From Shimia biformata (GTDB lineage: Bacteria; Pseudomonadota; Alphaproteobacteria; Rhodobacterales; Rhodobacteraceae): a DNA stretch of 64,000 nt. The notes below the pieces were generated by a model. It ran no database searches, was not told where the DNA came from, and was given only the letters and a program-made list of their open reading frames with translations. Shown in pieces: positions 2,550-56,995 of this stretch. The position numbers and the translations under genes are program-made. Location: contig NZ_JAFEJK010000001.1 in NCBI RefSeq assembly GCF_016888515.1, forward strand, positions 1,831,475 through 1,895,474. Reading direction: 5' to 3'. Numbering within the stretch: position 1 is the first letter of the stretch; every line of letters begins with the position of its first letter.

Positions 2550-2732
2550 GTCGTCTCCTGTCTGTGTTTGGCGATAGTCTAGGTTTTGGGGCCCGAATGT
2601 CGAGAGGCAGCCAGAGAAGAAAAAATCGGCGGCAAACTCTTCATTCTGCGGGTGGCATCTGACGTGCTACCATATATTGTGGTTTGGCCCCCGGTGAAGA
2701 TTCGCGGGCAGGCAGCAGAAGCGGAGGATGAC

Positions 2733-3563
2733 GTGCAGCAGTATCATGACCAGTTGAAGCTCATTCTTGAGACCGGGGAAGAAACAACCGACCGCACCGG
2801 CACCGGGACGATCTCAACCTTTGGCTTGCAGGCGCGGTATCGTCTTGCCGACGGTTTCCCGCTGGTGACGACGAAGAAGCTGCACCTGCGCTCGATCATT
2901 CACGAACTGCTGTGGTTCCTGTCGGGCGATACAAACATCACCTATCTCAAGGAAAACGGCGTTTCGATCTGGGATGAATGGGCCGATGAAAACGGCGATC
3001 TTGGTCCGGTCTATGGCCACCAATGGCGCCATTTCCCCAAGCTGATCCCGGCGGGGCAGGTCGAAGGCCGCGAGGTGTTCCACGCCGGCGAGGTCGACCA
3101 GATTGCCGAACTGGTCGAGATGATCAAGACCACGCCCGACAGCCGCCGCCTGATCGTGTCCGCCTGGAACCCCGGCGACGTGCCGGAAATGGCGCTGCCA
3201 CCCTGCCATACGCTGTGGCAGGTCAAGGTGCTGAACGGCAAGCTGCATCTGCAGCTTTACCAGCGCTCGGCCGACATGTTCCTGGGCGTGCCGTTCAACA
3301 TCGCGTCCTATGCGCTGTTGCAGGTGATGCTGGCGCATGTGACCGGGTATGAGCCGGGCGACTTCGTGCATACGATCGGCGACGGGCACATCTATTCCAA
3401 CCATGTCGAACAGGTGAAACTGCAGCTCAGCCGCACACCCAAACCGCTGCCGCAGATCAGGATCGCGCGCGACGTGCGCTCGATCTTCGATTTCAGATAC
3501 GAGGATTTCGAGGTGCTGAACTATGATCCCGATCCGGGCATCAAGGCGCCGGTGGCGGTCTGA
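2733..3563 (+). CDS. thyA: Thymidylate synthase
   Basis: Methylates dUMP to dTMP using methylene-tetrahydrofolate. The ThyA signature is complete: [12 protein letters not shown] for the N-terminal phosphate-binding loop, [11 protein letters not shown], the catalytic cysteine in LPPCHTLWQ (C158), [21 protein letters not shown] and HIYSNHVEQ. The start is taken as GTG at 2733, preceded by GGAGG with 5 bases spacing; this gives 276 residues beginning [12 protein letters not shown]. The frame is open upstream to 2586, but that part is not ThyA-like. folA follows after 3 bases, so the dTMP cycle enzymes are co-transcribed. Confidence 0.95.
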
Positions 3564-3566
3564 GCC

Positions 3567-4043
3567 ATGCTGACCCTGATTGTTGCCCGTGACCGGAACG
3601 GGGCCATCGGCAAGGCCAACACGATCCCATGGCACGCACCCGAAGACCTGCGGTTCTTTCAGCGCGAAACCCTCGGTGGTGCGATCATCATGGGGCGCAA
3701 TACCTGGGACAGCCTGCCGGTCAAGCCGTTGAAAAACAGGTTCAATATCGTGGTTTCGTCGCAGCCGGACCTGTGCGAGACCGTGGTGCCGACGCTGGAA
3801 TCCGCCATTCAGCGCGCCGAGGCCGAGGGCTATCGTCGTCTCTACGGGATCGGTGGCGCGCGGGTTTATGGAGGGCTTCTGCCACGGGCCGACCGGCTTC
3901 TGGTGACCGAGGTCGATCTTTCGGTTGAGGGGGCGGATACGCATTTCCCGGACTTTGGCGCGGATGACTGGCGTCAGATCGGAAAGCTGGACCTGCGGTC
4001 AGAGGCCCCGAGATGCACCGTGCATGAGTATCTTCGTCGCTGA
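3567..4043 (+). CDS. folA: Dihydrofolate reductase
   Basis: Reduces dihydrofolate, which ThyA produces, to tetrahydrofolate with NADPH. The 158-residue length is standard. The N-terminus MLTLIVARDRNGAIGKANTIPWHAPEDLRFF carries the Met20-loop equivalent and the acidic substrate residue (ED near 26-27), followed by IIMGRNTWDSLP (NADPH site) and GIGGARVYGGLLPRADRLLVTEVD. It lies immediately after thyA, a common pairing. Confidence 0.95.
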   Translation: MLTLIVARDRNGAIGKANTIPWHAPEDLRFFQRETLGGAIIMGRNTWDSLPVKPLKNRFNIVVSSQPDLCETVVPTLESAIQRAEAEGYRRLYGIGGARVYGGLLPRADRLLVTEVDLSVEGADTHFPDFGADDWRQIGKLDLRSEAPRCTVHEYLRR

Positions 4044-5229: not shown

Positions 5230-5598
5230 ATGCGCAACGCGGCACTGGTTCTTGGGATCATCGCTGGGATCGTCGGAATGATCGTCGGCTTTTTCAGCTG
5301 GGGCTATACCGAAGTCATCGACCGCTATGGCGAGATCGAGGGCCTGGCAGAGCAGGTGAACAATGTCGGCCTGATCCGGGCGGGCGCGCTTCTTGCGCCG
5401 CTGTTGGCCATCGCAGGCGGCGCCATGGCACGGGCGCGGGCGCTCTGGGGGGGTGTTCTACTGTTGATTTCGTCGGCGGGCATGTATGCCGCCTTTGGCT
5501 TTAACGCCTTCACCATGTTCCCCATCGCCTTTGCCGGGCTTGCCGGGGTTCTGGCGATTGCAGCCGGCAAACCCGACGAACCCAAGTCACATTTCTAG
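5230..5598 (+). CDS. Small integral membrane protein
   Basis: A 122-residue protein with about four hydrophobic segments: residues 4-25 (LVLGIIAGIVGMIVGFF), around 50-65, 70-90 and 95-115, ending in a polar KPDEPKSHF tail. GAAGGATAGC precedes the start. Alternating small and aromatic residues and the four-helix layout resemble DUF4064-like membrane proteins, but the match is not certain. Function unknown. It converges on the DoxX gene. Confidence 0.65.
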   Translation: MRNAALVLGIIAGIVGMIVGFFSWGYTEVIDRYGEIEGLAEQVNNVGLIRAGALLAPLLAIAGGAMARARALWGGVLLLISSAGMYAAFGFNAFTMFPIAFAGLAGVLAIAAGKPDEPKSHF

Positions 5599-5608
5599 GA
5601 GTCCAGGA

Positions 5609-6166
5609 TCACACCGCTTGGCTTCGCGCCTTCAGGAACCGGTCCACTGACAGCGGACCCGCGCCCTTGAAGACAAGAACCAGAAGGATGGCGATCCAGA
5701 ACAGGCGCTGGTCCAGGATCGCGCTGTCCTGGATGCGGTCGAACCACGCTCCGACCGTGGCCGAGTGTTCGATGGCCCGGTGGCCATAGAGATCCGTCAG
5801 GCTTTGCACGCAGATGAACCCGATCATGCCCAAAGCGGCAAGGCGGGTCAGGAAGCCAAAAAGGATCATCGCGGGCAGGATGAACTCGGCCAGTGTCCCG
5901 GCCACCACCACGGCCCAGTGCAGCACCGACATCTGGGACGTGTCATAGCCCACCGCCTCGAACGCACGCGGGAAAATCTGGGCATAGGCCCCCGCGCTGG
6001 GGCTGAAAACTCCAAGAAAACCGTCACCCACCTTGGTCAGCGCCGAATTCCAGAAATAGACCAGAAGCACCGCGCAGAACACGAAACGCGCCAGCGTGGG
6101 CAGCAGCCATTCGCTGCGTTCGATACGGGAAAAGGCGCGATTGTGCAGGGACAGCAGGGTATTCAT
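5609..6166 (-). CDS. bufD: DoxX-family membrane protein, last gene of bufferin operon (BufD)
   Basis: A 185-residue inner-membrane protein with four predicted helices (LARFVFCAVLLVYFWNSALTKV, VVVAGTLAEFILPAMILFGF, AALGMIGFICVQSLT, LFWIAILLVLVFKGAG) and the DoxX hallmark GAGPLSVDRFL near the end. The start at 6166 has AAGGAAC upstream and lies one base after the bufC stop. A DoxX gene is a known companion of bufferin operons, where it is named BufD; its role there is unclear, perhaps redox or copper related. Confidence 0.8.
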   Translation of the reverse strand: MNTLLSLHNRAFSRIERSEWLLPTLARFVFCAVLLVYFWNSALTKVGDGFLGVFSPSAGAYAQIFPRAFEAVGYDTSQMSVLHWAVVVAGTLAEFILPAMILFGFLTRLAALGMIGFICVQSLTDLYGHRAIEHSATVGAWFDRIQDSAILDQRLFWIAILLVLVFKGAGPLSVDRFLKARSQAV

Positions 6167-6167
6167 G

Positions 6168-6953
6168 TCATGTTCCTTGGCTTGGGCGGTGGTTCGGGCG
6201 GTGGTTTGGGCCTGTCGGGTGAAGGGCCGCGATTGCATTGGTGTTCAGAAGCAATCCCAGAACAGGTGTCAGGTCGAACTTGTCGCCGCCCGCGTCAACC
6301 GCGCATTCCAGTGGCGCAGCTTTACCGATAGCGGTCAGAAATGCCGCGCCCCCTTTGGGCAGAAGATGTGGTTCGGGGTCGAACCCGTCCCGCAGAACGA
6401 CCACATCCTGCGCTTCGGCGCGCGGCTTGGGGGCGTTTTCGGACGTATTGAAACGCCAGATGTCAAAGATCGGCCAGTCCGAGGTCACGATCCGCACCGC
6501 AGGCGCAAGCTCAAGCCGAAGGGCGCCAAGCGCTTCGGGCGGAACGGCGGCCAGCGCGTCCGCCGCGATCCCTTCCGCATCCGCGGCGTGATAGGATTGG
6601 CGCAGGGCCAGCTCAAGCCGGGCGACGTCGCTCAGATAACCAAGGTGCTGCAACGGTTCAAAGTCACGCAGGAAAGCCGGAAACTCGGACCCGTAGAACA
6701 TCATCAGCGGAGAGGTGGGCGGCGCGACGCGCAGGAACTGGCCCGCGACATGCTTGAAATTCTCAGGACCGATCAGCTTGCGGATGACCGGAAATCCGAC
6801 CTCAAGCGCCTCGGTCAGTGAGACCGCGACATTGTTGCGATAGACGTTATAGCGCCGTCCCGCTGCCCGGCCTTGCCCGTCCAGCAGCCCCTCGGGGACG
6901 GGCTGGGCCGCATCCAGAAGGGCAGCGCGGAAGATGTCCTGGCTCACGCTCAT
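6168..6953 (-). CDS. bufC: DUF2063 partner protein of the MNIO enzyme (BufC/HvfC)
   Basis: A 261-residue protein. The N-terminal DUF2063 domain is clear: [14 protein letters not shown], then [31 protein letters not shown], the typical YRNN-V-LT-A-FP pattern. The C-terminal half probably holds the RRE-like peptide-binding fold. In bufferin and methanobactin-like pathways this protein presents the precursor to the DUF692 iron enzyme. The start at 6953 overlaps the bufB stop (ATGA, 6950-6953), so B and C are translationally coupled. Confidence 0.9.
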
Positions 6954-7807
6954 GCCGCCACCTTCGCCAGCGCTGTTGCCGCGCGGGTCGCTTCTGCGGC
7001 CAGAATCGGCCAGTCGGGAACATCGGTGTCCCATTCGATCAGGATCGGGCGCGGACCGGACCGGGCCAGCGTATGATCCAGCAATGCCCAGACCGGGTCG
7101 ACCACCGGCTTGCCGTGGCTGTCAATCAAGAGCGGCGCACCGTGGTCGTCTTCGTCCTCGTCATGGCCGCCAAGGTGGATTTCCCCCACCTTGTCCAGCG
7201 GATAGGCGTCGATATAGGCGCGCGGTTCAAAGCCAAGGTTGGTGGCCGAGACAAAGACGTTGTTGACGTCCAGCAACAGGCCGCAGCCGGTGCGTTTGGT
7301 GATTTCAGACAGGAAATCCGGCTCGGCCCAGGTCGACTCGGCAAAGGCCAGATAGCTTGACGGGTTTTCCAGCATCATCTGTCGCCCGATCACCTCTTGC
7401 AGCTGGTCGATATGGTCGGCGACGCGGGTCAGGGTGGCGTTGGTATAGGGCAGGGGCAGAAGGTCGTTCAGGAACTCGGCCCCATGGGTGGACCACGCCA
7501 GATGTTCCGAGAAAACAGTGGGTTGCAGCCAGTTGATCAGGTGTTTCAGCCGCGCCAGATGGTCCGGGTCCAGCGCCCCTTCACCGCCGATCGACAGGCC
7601 GACCCCGTGAACCGAGATCGGAAACCGCTCGGACAGGTGCCTGAGCTGGGCAATCGGGCGCCCACCAGCGCCCATGTAATTCTCGGCGTGGATCTCCAGC
7701 CAGCCGACCGGGTCCGGGTCGGCCATGATCGCGGCGAAATGCTGTGGCTTGTAGCCGACGCCGGGCAGGGCGGGCAGTTCGGGAAAGCGTGGCTGGGTGT
7801 CGAACAT
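6950..7807 (-). CDS. bufB: DUF692 multinuclear non-heme iron oxidase (BufB/MNIO)
   Basis: A 285-residue TIM-barrel enzyme of the MNIO (DUF692) family, which oxidises cysteines in RiPP precursors. Likely metal ligands and conserved blocks are visible in order: [72 protein letters not shown] and LIEWDTDVP. The start at 7807 (ATG) is preceded by AAGGGA. It lies 23 bases after the second precursor gene and overlaps bufC. Cytoplasmic; it probably modifies both DUF2282 peptides encoded upstream. Confidence 0.92.
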
Positions 7808-7830
7808 CGGCAAATCCCTTCAGGCAGAAC

Positions 7831-8145
7831 TCAGGCGGGCAGGTCGCGGTCAAGCGGCTCCAGCGACGGCTGGCGCGGGCTGCCATCGGCCATGGCGGGC
7901 AACTCGATTTCAAGGCAGGATCCCTTGTCGACCAGTGTCCATGCATTGCCCTGGTAATCCACCGTCGATGTGCCTGCACAGGTCGTCCCCGGCCCCGCCT
8001 TGCAGCCGTTCTGTCCCGCCATCGAAATGCCATAGCATTTCTCTTTGGTTGCGGCGGCGGCTTCGGACCCCTGAGACGCAATTGCCGCCAGAACAGCGGC
8101 AGCAAGTGTCAGCGGTTGGGCGCGGGGTGTGATTTTTACGGTCAT
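7831..8145 (-). CDS. bufA: Bufferin-type precursor peptide (DUF2282), second copy
   Basis: A 104-residue precursor with an N-terminal export signal ([21 protein letters not shown]) and a core with four cysteines: C37 in [15 protein letters not shown]48, C56 (PGTTCAGTS) and C77 ([10 protein letters not shown]). Bufferins are copper-binding RiPPs in which, as described for Caulobacter, MNIO enzymes convert central cysteines to thiooxazoles. The core is nearly identical to the first copy but has NGCK where that one has NDCA. A strong GGGAGGG site precedes the start. Confidence 0.9.
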
Positions 8146-8248
8146 GTGACCCTCCCTGGGTTGGCTGGTGCGCGTGTGGTCGGGAGAATGATATCACGAA
8201 ACGCGCAAAAGGCGCGTGGCCCGTGCGGTTGCCGGGCCACGCAGAAAC

Positions 8249-8551
8249 TTATGCCGGAAGGTCACGCTCAAGCGCTTCCAGCGACCCCTTGCGCATGGTG
8301 CCGTCGGCCATCGAGGGCAGTTCCATTTCCATGCAGGTGCCTGCGTCCACCAGCTTCCAGGCGTTGCCCTGGTAATCGACGCTCGAGGTGCCTGCGCAGG
8401 TCGTGCCCGGACCGGCCGCGCAATCGTTCTGGCCGGCCATTGCGACGCCATAGCATTTTTCTTTTTCAGCGGCGACCGCGGTGGTGGCATGGGCACTGAC
8501 TGCGGCTGCGACGGCACCGGCAACGGCGAGGGTTTTGACGGTTTTGGACAT
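8249..8551 (-). CDS. bufA: Bufferin-type precursor peptide (DUF2282), first copy
   Basis: A 100-residue precursor: signal peptide [28 protein letters not shown], then [34 protein letters not shown] and [15 protein letters not shown]. The four cysteines (C33, C44, C52, C73) have the same spacing as in the second copy. The start at 8551 has AGGGAAG upstream; an in-frame upstream extension is not export-like. It is the promoter-proximal gene of bufA-bufA-bufB-bufC-bufD. A metal-responsive promoter in 8552-8797 is expected from family knowledge, but I could not identify it. Confidence 0.92.
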
Positions 8552-8797
8552 AATATACTTCCCTATCGAGGTTTGGTTGAACTCAGGCCACCCGAACCGG
8601 GCGGCATGGGGAAACCCTAAGACAGGCCAGTGCTGACAGACCAATCACGGGCCTGTGCATAACGCGTGCGTGAAGTTGCCGGGGTGTTTCGTGAAGATTC
8701 CGGCGCTGGAAGGTCGGAAATCTTACAAAAAATCCGGGGCGCGACCGGATTTCCCGTATCGCGCCCCAAAATGTTTCATCAATTGTTGCAGCCGGGA

Positions 8798-55237: not shown

Positions 55238-56995
55238 ATGACAGCCCTGGTGCGCCACAGATTTGCGATTCTCGCGCTTTTCACCTTTCTGGCGGTGGTC
55301 GCTGCCGCCGGGGTCTGGCGCTTTGGGCTGAGTCAGGCGATCGCGCAGGTGGCGCAACGGGGCGAGGCCGACCTTGCGCTGGCCTCGGACCGGCTGACGG
55401 CGCAGTTGCAGCGCTATCGCGAACTGGCGGTTCTAATGGCGGACCGGCCGGAACTGGTGGCGCTGACCAGGGGGGCGGGCGACCGCGACACCGCCGAGCA
55501 GCTGCTGCGCGCCGCAGCCGACAAGACTTCGGCGCTCGATCTGATCTATGCCGACCGCGACGGGGCGGTTCTGGCCTCGGCGCAGCCCGACGACCCGGTC
55601 TATGCCCTGTTGCAGGAACAGCCGTTTTTTCGCCGCGCCCTGCACGGGGCGCTTGGTGCGGCCCATGCCCGCAGCCCGCGCTTCGACCGCCGTGCCTTTT
55701 ACTTCGCCGCGCCGACCTTCGGGGTCGATGGCCGGGTGATCGGGGTTCTGACCGTCATTGTCGATGTCGAATATGTCGAATGGGAATGGCGCGGCGATCG
55801 TCCGGCGGTCCTGTTCGTCGATGATCGCGGCGAGGTCTTTATCTCCAACCGCTCGGAAATGCTGTTCTGGAAGCGCGCCGAAGGGCAGGCCGGGTTGACG
55901 CCGCCGCAAGGGGAAACCCCGCCGTTCGAAAGCCGCCTGATGGACGGGCGCGAAATCTGGCAACTGGACTGGGGGCCGTATCTGCCGACGCAGGCGCTGC
56001 ATATCGTCAAACCCCTGCCGGTGATCGGCATGCAGGGTGAGGCGATTGTCGACATCGCCCCCGCCCGACGGCTGGCCGGGTTGCAGGCGGCGGTTGCGGC
56101 CGCGGTGTTCCTGATCTTCGGTCTGGTTCTGTATCAGGCGATGCAGCGCCGCCGGGTTCTGTTCGAGGCGAACCTTGTTCTTGAGGAACGCGTGGCCGAA
56201 CGCACCCGCGAACTCTCGGAAACCAACACCGTCCTGCGCCACGAGATCAGCGAACGCCAAGAGGCCGAGGCCGCGCTGAAAAGGGCGCAGGCGGAACTGG
56301 TGCAGGCGGGCAAGCTGTCGGCGCTGGGGCAGATGTCGGCGGGGATCAGCCACGAATTGAACCAGCCCCTGATGGCGATCCAGCAATTTGCCGAAAACGG
56401 CGCCCTGTTCATGGAGCGCGGCAAGCCCGAGAAGGCGGCCGAGAACCTTGGCCGCATCTCGAAGATGGCGGCGCGCATGGCGCGGATCATCCGCAACCTG
56501 CGGTCCTTTGCCCGCAACGAAAATGAACCGATGGGGCGGGTCGATATCGTCGCCGTGATCGACACCGCGTTGGAACTGACCGAGACCCGGCTGACCAAGG
56601 ACCGCATCAAGGTGCATTGGAAACGCCCCCACCACCCGGTCTGGGTGCGCGGCGGCGAGGTGCGGCTGGGGCAGGTGCTGGTCAACCTCATCACCAATGC
56701 CGCCGACGCGATGGAAAACAGCGCCCGCCGCACCCTGCACCTGACGGTCGAGGAAGGCGCGCGCGTCACCGTCCATGTCAGCGACACCGGCCCCGGCATC
56801 AAGGAGCCGGAAAAGATCTTTGACCCGTTCTTTTCCACCAAGGCCGTGGGCGCGGCCGAGGGGGTTGGCCTTGGGCTGTCGATCTCTTATGGGCTGGTCC
56901 AAAGCTTCGGCGGCAATATCCGGGGCATGAACACCGAAGAGGGCGCGCGCTTTTCGGTGGAACTGGAACGCTGGCAAGAGGAACAGGCGGCATGA
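55238..56995 (+). CDS. dctB: DctB-type sensor histidine kinase
   Basis: A 585-residue membrane kinase. First helix FAILALFTFLAVVAAAGVW, periplasmic double-PAS-type sensor (about 35-285: LTAQLQRYRELAVLMADRPELVALTRG, SALDLIYADRDGAVLASA, RRAFYFAAPTFGVDGRVIGVLTVIVDVEYVEW), second helix VAAAVFLIFGLVLYQAMQ, coiled coil, H-box SAGISHELNQPL (H372), N/G boxes VLVNLITNAADAME and DTGPGIKEPEKIFDPFFSTK. Senses C4-dicarboxylates in known systems. Overlaps dctD by ATGA. Confidence 0.92.
   Translation: MTALVRHRFAILALFTFLAVVAAAGVWRFGLSQAIAQVAQRGEADLALASDRLTAQLQRYRELAVLMADRPELVALTRGAGDRDTAEQLLRAAADKTSALDLIYADRDGAVLASAQPDDPVYALLQEQPFFRRALHGALGAAHARSPRFDRRAFYFAAPTFGVDGRVIGVLTVIVDVEYVEWEWRGDRPAVLFVDDRGEVFISNRSEMLFWKRAEGQAGLTPPQGETPPFESRLMDGREIWQLDWGPYLPTQALHIVKPLPVIGMQGEAIVDIAPARRLAGLQAAVAAAVFLIFGLVLYQAMQRRRVLFEANLVLEERVAERTRELSETNTVLRHEISERQEAEAALKRAQAELVQAGKLSALGQMSAGISHELNQPLMAIQQFAENGALFMERGKPEKAAENLGRISKMAARMARIIRNLRSFARNENEPMGRVDIVAVIDTALELTETRLTKDRIKVHWKRPHHPVWVRGGEVRLGQVLVNLITNAADAMENSARRTLHLTVEEGARVTVHVSDTGPGIKEPEKIFDPFFSTKAVGAAEGVGLGLSISYGLVQSFGGNIRGMNTEEGARFSVELERWQEEQAA

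Follow-up and report, generated by a model that had tools for sequence, protein, structure and literature searches.

A putative Buf1 bufferin operon of Shimia biformata with a hairpin between two paralogous precursors

Why does an operon with a single modifying enzyme carry two peptide precursors, and in what do the two peptides differ? This question is raised by a row of five minus-strand genes in Shimia biformata, lying in a window of 64,000 nucleotides, the whole stretch of DNA that was analysed. The row begins with two DUF2282 (Buf1) precursors, A1 (8249..8551, start located; 100 aa; PF10048, E 7e-25; cysteines 33, 44, 52, and 73) and A2 (7831..8145; 104 aa; PF10048, E 3.7e-22; cysteines 37, 48, 56, and 77), the latter with a PSL tail. 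They are followed by BufB, an MNIO (DUF692; 6950..7807; PF05114, E 2.5e-103; NF050167 MNIO_BufB, 372.5 bits against a cut-off of 310), by its DUF2063 partner BufC, which has a C-terminal domain (6168..6953; PF09836, E 2.8e-22), and by a DoxX-family protein as the last gene (5609..6166; PF07681, E 1.3e-5, 26.2 bits against a cut-off of 23.6). These Pfam and NCBIfam matches, far beyond chance for the operon's families, bear out the gene order and the two four-cysteine precursors of the original prediction, and the ATGA overlap that it placed between BufB and BufC is found at 6953-6950; BufB ends with ATGA in 76 of 81 loci, the Shimia biformata locus counted. The operon sits downstream of thrS, which precedes it codirectionally in 78 of the 80 named loci; the remaining two (L013 and L071) are cut off and contain no thrS stretch. 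Judged by eye only, export-type N-termini are plausible on both A1 and A2. All four cysteines are kept in 7 of 7 A1, 7 of 7 A2, and 74 of 74 single precursors, rows that were selected with a pattern already requiring these cysteines.

Family matches together with structure alignments and comparisons uphold the predicted bufferin identity, and, going by these likenesses, we have little doubt that the locus is a Buf1 bufferin operon. BufB could be aligned with the MNIO structures 3bww, 8hci (TglH), and 7dz9 (MbnB). The AF2 model of BufC (pLDDT 92.6; alignment of 32 of 81 rows, a set of 40 less L020, L034, L042, L048, L052, L056, L066, and L074, with L022 left out beforehand) matched 8hci_A, 8hi7_A (TglHI), and 3dee in Foldseek at E < 0.001. 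TbiB1 RRE chains matched this model only at E > 1, so the assignment of an RRE part in BufC rests on its likeness to TglI and 3dee. The Buf2 class does not fit: Buf2 precursors have six or twelve cysteines, and our four-cysteine precursors score 20.1 and 19.3 bits against the cut-off of 60 of the NCBIfam model Cu_RiPP_BufA2, while BufC and DoxX score below the Hvf-type NCBIfam cut-offs. A search by sequence found no solved structures for BufC and A1, and the AF2 model of mature A1 (pLDDT 46; precursor alignment of 24 of 89 distinct sequences) was set aside. In the organism's own genome (30 contigs), we found one MNIO gene (threshold E 0.001) and two DUF2282 matches (threshold E 1), which makes one enzyme for both peptides the natural reading; in line with the original prediction, the one MNIO found is the only candidate modifier of both, and that it acts on both precursors is quite probable. 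By likeness to the family, both peptides would be exported through Sec, BufC would present them to BufB, and BufB would convert the two central cysteines, the residues modified in Buf1 according to a figure legend (PMC12452194), into thiooxazoles, so that the peptides could bind excess periplasmic copper.

That bufferin clusters can have tandem precursors has been published before (Antoine et al. 2025, PMC12452194); what the present work adds is the A2 paralogue, the placement of the hairpin, and an operator-like motif. A search of related genomes for double-precursor operons, as proposed with the original prediction, found two precursors in 5 and one in 74 of the 79 named loci with upstream DNA (L071, with no precursor in its DNA, was dropped). 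Three loci from organisms named Shimia (L004, L005, and L041) have one precursor. Another tandem, in genome G007, consists of two nearly identical copies with the hairpin after the second, and three genomes (G256, G319, and G371) have two DUF2282 matches on different contigs, so their tandem status is not established; the number of genomes with two DUF2282 matches is a lower bound, up to 16 candidates having been scored per genome. For the wider family loci, the pattern yielded no precursor for L089, L092, and L106, and extra out-of-frame rows of L095, L109, and L115 were left uncounted. A DUF692 RiPP-like cluster is also named in a relative in the Rhodoalgimonas paper (PMC10608839).

As for what sets A2 apart from A1, the original prediction saw in the motif at the second cysteine (NDCA versus NGCK) a hint of different modification. 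This idea found no support: NGCK is the motif of the sole precursor at locus L053, 9 of the 74 single precursors depart from NDCA (six NDCK, two NGCA, and one NGCK), and the seven A2 genes are themselves divided among NGCK (2), NGCA (3), NHCA (1), and NDCA (1). Such variation among single precursors and A2 genes speaks against the residue beside the second cysteine as a meaningful A1/A2 difference, and Gadgil et al. report DUF2282 precursors with little conservation around the cysteines (PMC12668002). The consistent differences lie elsewhere, in the GSL-to-PSL change of the tail and in the position relative to the hairpin. At the first residue of this tail motif, proline is found in 7 of 7 A2 and glycine in all 81 other A1 and single precursors compared (rows of G007, G350, G256, and G319 were aligned but do not belong to the three groups counted); among loci from other families, 4 of 6 also have the GSL tail motif. 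The A2 genes (7 rows) group together (SH-aLRT 90) in a tree built on few columns, in which the A2 branch is not starred. Within the same genome, A2 is 71-75% identical to A1; it is also the more diverse of the two (mean pairwise identity, 0.763 versus 0.846), with longer terminal branches than A1 in 7 of 7 genomes. Nevertheless, all seven A2 genes have an open frame, all four cysteines, and most of the core, and the mean pN/pS ratios (0.167 for A1 and 0.198 for A2; 21 pairs each) show that both four-cysteine precursors are held by purifying selection. On this comparison of sequences, A2 is a paralogue that a Shimia-like group has conserved and that evolves faster than A1, and its changed tail may alter recognition by BufBC.

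The hairpin between A1 and A2 (8214..8242, minus strand) has perfect 10-bp arms at 8233-8242 and 8214-8223, and it folds with a z of -3.37 over 106 nt (matched by 0 of 200 shuffles) and of -2.97 over 60 nt (2 of 200). Of the 80 first precursors compared, 75 are followed by a stem of at least 8 pairs, the other 5 lacking a long uninterrupted stem, but of the A2 genes 0 of 6 are, so the dose of A2 is probably lower. The 5' arms of these first-precursor hairpins are diverse (62 different among 75), and the U-tracts are weak, with at least five T in the next 8 nt after 10 of 76 first precursors versus 25 of 66 thrS genes. A terminator consensus scan gave 4 terminator-like sites versus 3.7 expected; the A1-A2 hairpin, whose loop and tail fall outside the scan's rules, is absent from them. 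We incline slightly to the view that the hairpin sets a dose difference between A1 and A2. It would act either by stabilising the mRNA over A1 or by stopping a fraction of the polymerases. More A1 would then be made than A2 or the enzymes, on the pattern of the Rhodobacter puf operon, and the paralogue A2 would be kept in the Shimia-like group at an enzyme-like dose. The hairpin may also be a plain terminator or repeat with no dosing role, and because in G007 it follows the second copy, the second precursor is not always placed past the hairpin. In the main text of PMC12452194, the words hairpin, terminator, attenuat, and stem-loop have 0 occurrences, and the literature searched offered nothing about hairpins or terminators in bufferin clusters, though we make no claim that the feature is unpublished.

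Upstream of A1 lies a conserved, near-palindromic, operator-like motif of 34 bp (8641..8674, minus strand), which is present in 79 of 79 near loci with upstream DNA, that of Shimia biformata included (L013 and L071 are outside this set). Its lowest score in the loci is 23.1 bits versus a highest score of -6.5 in shuffled sequence, the motif having been fitted to these same sequences; among 26 wider family loci, it exceeds 14 bits in 13 and is missing in the other 13. No second site was found within the window, nor a second copy between A1 and A2 in 6 of 6 loci. When 10 genomes were searched with a longer pattern that tolerated up to 3 mismatches, each had a single match at 0-1 mismatch, at this locus. 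Weaker off-locus matches numbered 74 in the 10 genomes versus 39 for a control with the pattern reversed, so additional weaker sites are possible; among the matches listed when a short pattern was run on 16 genomes allowing 1 mismatch, many look coding by eye. A -10-like element, TAGGGT, lies at 8614..8619 (minus strand): TANNN[T/G], a pattern chosen after the sequences were seen, begins 17-24 nt past the motif in 68 of 79 loci, 64 of these at 20 or 21, versus 5 of 79 and 2 of 79 in control intervals. A sigma-70 consensus scan gave 0 promoters. By comparison among the loci, transcription would start from one regulated promoter, with the motif at 8641-8674 and a -10 near 8614-8619, though A2 may have further promoters ahead of it.

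Regarding the inducer, copper is the one toward which we lean; this is by analogy, since copper dependence is drawn from relatives only, namely the Caulobacter operons induced by copper (PMC8224329). These relatives respond also to cadmium and dichromate (PMC3511200), Antoine et al. write that other metals may be the target of some bufferins (PMC12452194), NrsF was not found in the one genome searched, the organism's own (a control search was positive in Caulobacter vibrioides), and the motif found as the sole near-perfect site in each of 10 genomes is a different one, all of which would suit another metal or stress acting in this group through a different regulator. Such a switch seems unlikely nonetheless, as bufferin thiooxazoles are tied to copper in the literature (PMC12452194) and nothing found at this locus points to another metal.

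Whatever the inducer, the second precursor could be ordinary redundancy, A2 adding dose while being modified and used like A1, with the hairpin an incidental terminator or repeat. We regard this as quite possible, if short of probable: the published tandems (PMC12452194), the two nearly identical G007 copies ahead of their hairpin, and the retention in A2 of all four cysteines and most of the core speak for it, whereas the divergence of A2 from A1 in the same genome, its proline in 7 of 7, its diversity under purifying selection, and its position past the hairpin in all six loci measured do not. The longer A2 end branches, the single precursors of the three Shimia-named loci, and the GSL motif shared with other families might instead mean that A2 is poorly modified, is losing recognition by BufBC, and is on its way to loss; seven intact four-cysteine frames, the low pN/pS of A2, and NGCK as the motif of a sole precursor make such decay very doubtful. 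A two-tier metallophore, with A1 ahead of the hairpin as a bulk buffer in large excess and A2 past it, its recognition tail changed from GSL to PSL, as a low-dose, differently handled peptide with a role of its own, we put forward as speculation, unlikely as it stands. Were it true, A2 might serve another metal, carry another degree of modification, or hand metal over to a target, and both peptides would depend on one MNIO and one regulator, the latter with its sole strong genomic site at this locus. Taken as a whole, a bufferin operon with a regulated promoter, dosing by a hairpin, and an A2 paralogue is the likely explanation of this locus.

Bufferins are a widespread peptide family dealing with copper, and a natural, conserved pair of paralogues served by one enzyme amounts to a ready-made test of substrate recognition by BufBC. 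In addition, the hairpin suggests how one operon might yield many peptides per enzyme, and the promoter motif provides a way towards the regulator in a large marine group. Among known systems, the Caulobacter crescentus Buf1 operons CC3254-CC3257 and CC2907-CC2905 share DUF2282, DUF692, and DUF2063 with Shimia biformata, and the first of them also DoxX (PMC3511200). Each of them has a single precursor and is controlled by SigF/NrsF, whereas Shimia biformata has two precursors, no NrsF that we could find, another conserved motif, and a hairpin after A1. The tandem-precursor clusters of Antoine et al. likewise have more than one precursor per MNIO, and some MNIOs are suggested there to have more than one substrate; the A1-hairpin-A2 arrangement is not described in the sections covered of that paper (PMC12452194). 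In the Rhodobacter puf operon, a hairpin divides highly made upstream from less made downstream genes and determines how much reaction centre is made relative to LHI (PMC10253847), a likeness to the predicted A1-A2 hairpin, although the puf genes are unrelated to bufferin genes. Finally, the single-precursor thrS-linked operons of Rhodobacteraceae/Roseobacteraceae differ from Shimia biformata in being without A2, yet share with it the site downstream of thrS, the same motif, and the hairpin after the precursor.

The five genes that the original prediction had placed in a row, two precursors, an MNIO, a DUF2063 protein and a DoxX protein, are present and occupy positions 8551-5609 of the minus strand, with family matches for all five. 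These matches were strong for the two DUF2282 precursors, A1 (8551-8249, −) and A2 (8145-7831, −), for the MNIO, BufB (7807-6950, −), and for the DUF2063 protein, BufC (6953-6168, −), and above the cut-off for the DoxX protein (6166-5609, −); the cysteine positions assigned to A1 and A2 and the ATGA overlap of the bufB and bufC genes were likewise correct. Upstream and in the same orientation lies thrS (ORF 10780-8798, −; named by eye from the sequence), and the next gene downstream, convergent with the DoxX gene, encodes a small hydrophobic protein (5230-5598, +) for which family searches gave nothing above the cut-off. Adjacent ORFs at 2586-4043 (+) resemble, by eye, thymidylate synthase and dihydrofolate reductase. 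Between thrS and the operon, a stem and a T run can be seen by eye, the fold being no better than that of shuffled sequence (z −0.54). Our comparison set consists of the 80 named loci whose MNIOs are closest to this one; in 78 of them thrS stands directly upstream in the same orientation (the remaining two are cut off), a gene order suggesting that the bufferin operon has long been inherited vertically at this site.

Of these loci, 79 contain a precursor, 74 of them a single one and 5 a pair, namely L007, L008, L014 and L057, all named Shimia, and L019, from a MAG, while three more loci named Shimia (L004, L005 and L041) have a single precursor. Among 394 genomes of the same family as the window, 279 gave a DUF2282 match and at least 7 of these gave two, with the genes close together in G007, G124 and G350, as in the window's own genome (G000), and on separate contigs in G256, G319 and G371; G060, from outside the family, also has a DUF2282 pair. 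By eye, double-precursor layouts vary, with G124 arranged like the window. G007 (L094, contig C18, matches 55492-55990) carries a near-identical tandem pair with the hairpin 3′ of the second copy, the stems having 3 pairs after the first copy and 11 after the second. In G350 (L127, contig C2, matches 385234-386177), 803 bp separate the two match starts and an inverted repeat follows each precursor; by eye, the one after the first looks terminator-like and has a T run, and the second is followed by a hairpin and the enzyme start.

In a tree of the mature precursors (96 rows on 72 columns, few for such a number), the seven A2 genes (window, L007, L008, L014, L019, L057 and G124) are set apart by a branch whose SH-aLRT is 90 and which is not starred. 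In all seven genomes the end branch is longer for A2 than for A1, and A2 is the more diverse (mean pairwise identity 0.763 versus 0.846); within one genome, the mature parts of A1 and A2 are 71-75% identical. Mean pN/pS is 0.167 for A1 and 0.198 for A2 (21 pairs each), with synonymous sites near saturation and dN/dS finite in 19 and 7 pairs, respectively. Sequence comparison indicates that both are under purifying selection and that A2 is a second precursor conserved in a Shimia-like group. The consistent difference between them sits in the C-terminal tail, RxGSLExLxRDLP, where G occurs in 7/7 A1 and 74/74 single precursors and P in 7/7 A2. GSL is found in four of six loci of other families (L084, L087, L088 and L095, but not L110 or L111) and is lacking in L104, a wider family locus. 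That BufBC might recognize this tail is a guess. The residues around the second cysteine, NDCA versus NGCK, which the original prediction had taken as a hint of different modification efficiency or metal affinity, do not bear this weight: they are inconsistent among A2 genes and occur in single precursors, 74 of which include NDCK six times, NGCA twice and NGCK once. Gadgil et al. state that DUF2282 sequences are little conserved around cysteines, with the counterpoint that their FonBC left unprocessed those substrates in which a charged residue follows the cysteine, HNDCK among them (PMC12668002); FonB falls in another substrate group.

A perfect 10-bp inverted repeat separates A1 from A2 (8214-8242, −), and its fold stands out against shuffles both over 106 nt (z −3.37; 0/200 as good) and over 60 nt (z −2.97; 2/200). 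Counting uninterrupted stems of at least 8 pairs no more than 60 nt after the precursor stop codon, we found one after the first precursor in 75 of the 80 loci (window included) and after A2 in 0/6; in 69/80 loci, at most 5 of 100 shuffles folded as well. The 75 5′ arms comprise 62 distinct sequences, and therefore pairing has been kept while the letters change. A stem also follows the precursor in 23/26 loci of the wider family (the second precursor in G007), some of which may duplicate the 80, and in 2/6 loci of other families. In a comparison within the same loci, stems were counted after the first precursor in 76/80 cases, after thrS in 66/79 and after DoxX in 19/79. At least 5 T in the next 8 nt follow 10/76 first-precursor stems versus 25/66 for thrS and 3/19 for DoxX, counts that fit a leaky terminator or a 3′ stabilizer better than a full stop. 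By analogy with the puf operon of Rhodobacter, where a hairpin is reported to set the ratio of reaction centre to LHI (PMC10253847), we infer that the hairpin may let A1 output exceed that of A2 and the enzymes. In L043 and L065, the post-precursor hairpin, GTAGGGTGGGTT...AACCCACCCTAC, resembles a dispersed genomic repeat, so some lineages may have taken a repeat as the hairpin.

Upstream of the first precursor, a motif finder returned a motif that was refined to 34 bp (8641-8674, −). It scores in 79/79 loci (total 38.1 bits; minimum 23.1), having been fitted to the same sequences, and shuffled sequence reached at most −6.5 bits. It is near-palindromic: for 14 hits among the 80 loci, and for one within the window, the reverse strand also gives more than 15 bits at the same place. 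A −10-like TANNN[T/G], a pattern chosen post hoc, begins 17-24 nt past the motif in 68/79 loci (64 at 20 or 21), compared with 5/79 and 2/79 in control intervals. In each of 10 genomes, a site with 0-1 mismatches is unique to the bufferin locus; weaker hits elsewhere number 74 versus 39 with a reversed-pattern control. Because none of the six double loci has a second copy of the motif between A1 and A2, both genes are most likely transcribed from the promoter upstream of A1. Of 26 wider-family loci, 13 have the motif at more than 14 bits and 13, including G007, lack it, and it therefore belongs to a subgroup; the motif-less loci include eight (L085, L086 and L113-L118) with tails lacking the RDLPA end. 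Between thrS and the motif, an imperfect dyad, ACCTTCCAGCGCCGGAATCT (8695-8714, −), with similar stretches by eye in several Shimia-type loci, is reminiscent of MerR/CueR-type copper operators. A search of the window's own genome did not find NrsF, which in Caulobacter pairs with SigF as its anti-sigma factor.

Two SigF-controlled DUF692 clusters of C. crescentus, CCNA_03363-03366 and CCNA_02999-03001 (the latter taken to be CC2905-CC2907), are described as upregulated with copper whatever the cell type or medium, and the sigF mutant as copper-sensitive (PMC8224329); cadmium and dichromate are reported to affect the SigF regulon likewise (PMC3511200). A related EGKCG-type cluster in Microbulbifer cautions against taking copper induction for granted: its products are reported to have gone undetected in the proteome, also when copper was supplied (PMC12538549).

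The MNIO clears the NCBIfam BufB model (372.5 bits versus a cut-off of 310) and can be aligned with 3bww, TglH (8hci) and MbnB (7dz9, 7tcr). A sequence search of solved structures gave no match for the DUF2063 protein; its AF2 model (pLDDT 92.6) matches TglHI chain A (8hci_A, 8hi7_A) and NGO1945 of the gonococcus (3dee) at E < 0.001. Because the MNIO passes the BufB model and the DUF2063 model resembles TglHI chain A and 3dee, the operon is a Buf1 bufferin cluster, which bears out its earlier reading as bufferin-type. The locus is real and was read correctly, and within its known family it is an ordinary case. What the analysis adds is a comparative frame: a second precursor, conserved in a Shimia-like group, that lies past a conserved hairpin and carries a fixed change in its tail, together with a conserved promoter motif, a candidate regulator site. 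The double precursor is not new as such, tandem precursors having already been described in bufferin clusters by Antoine et al. in 2025 (PMC12452194).
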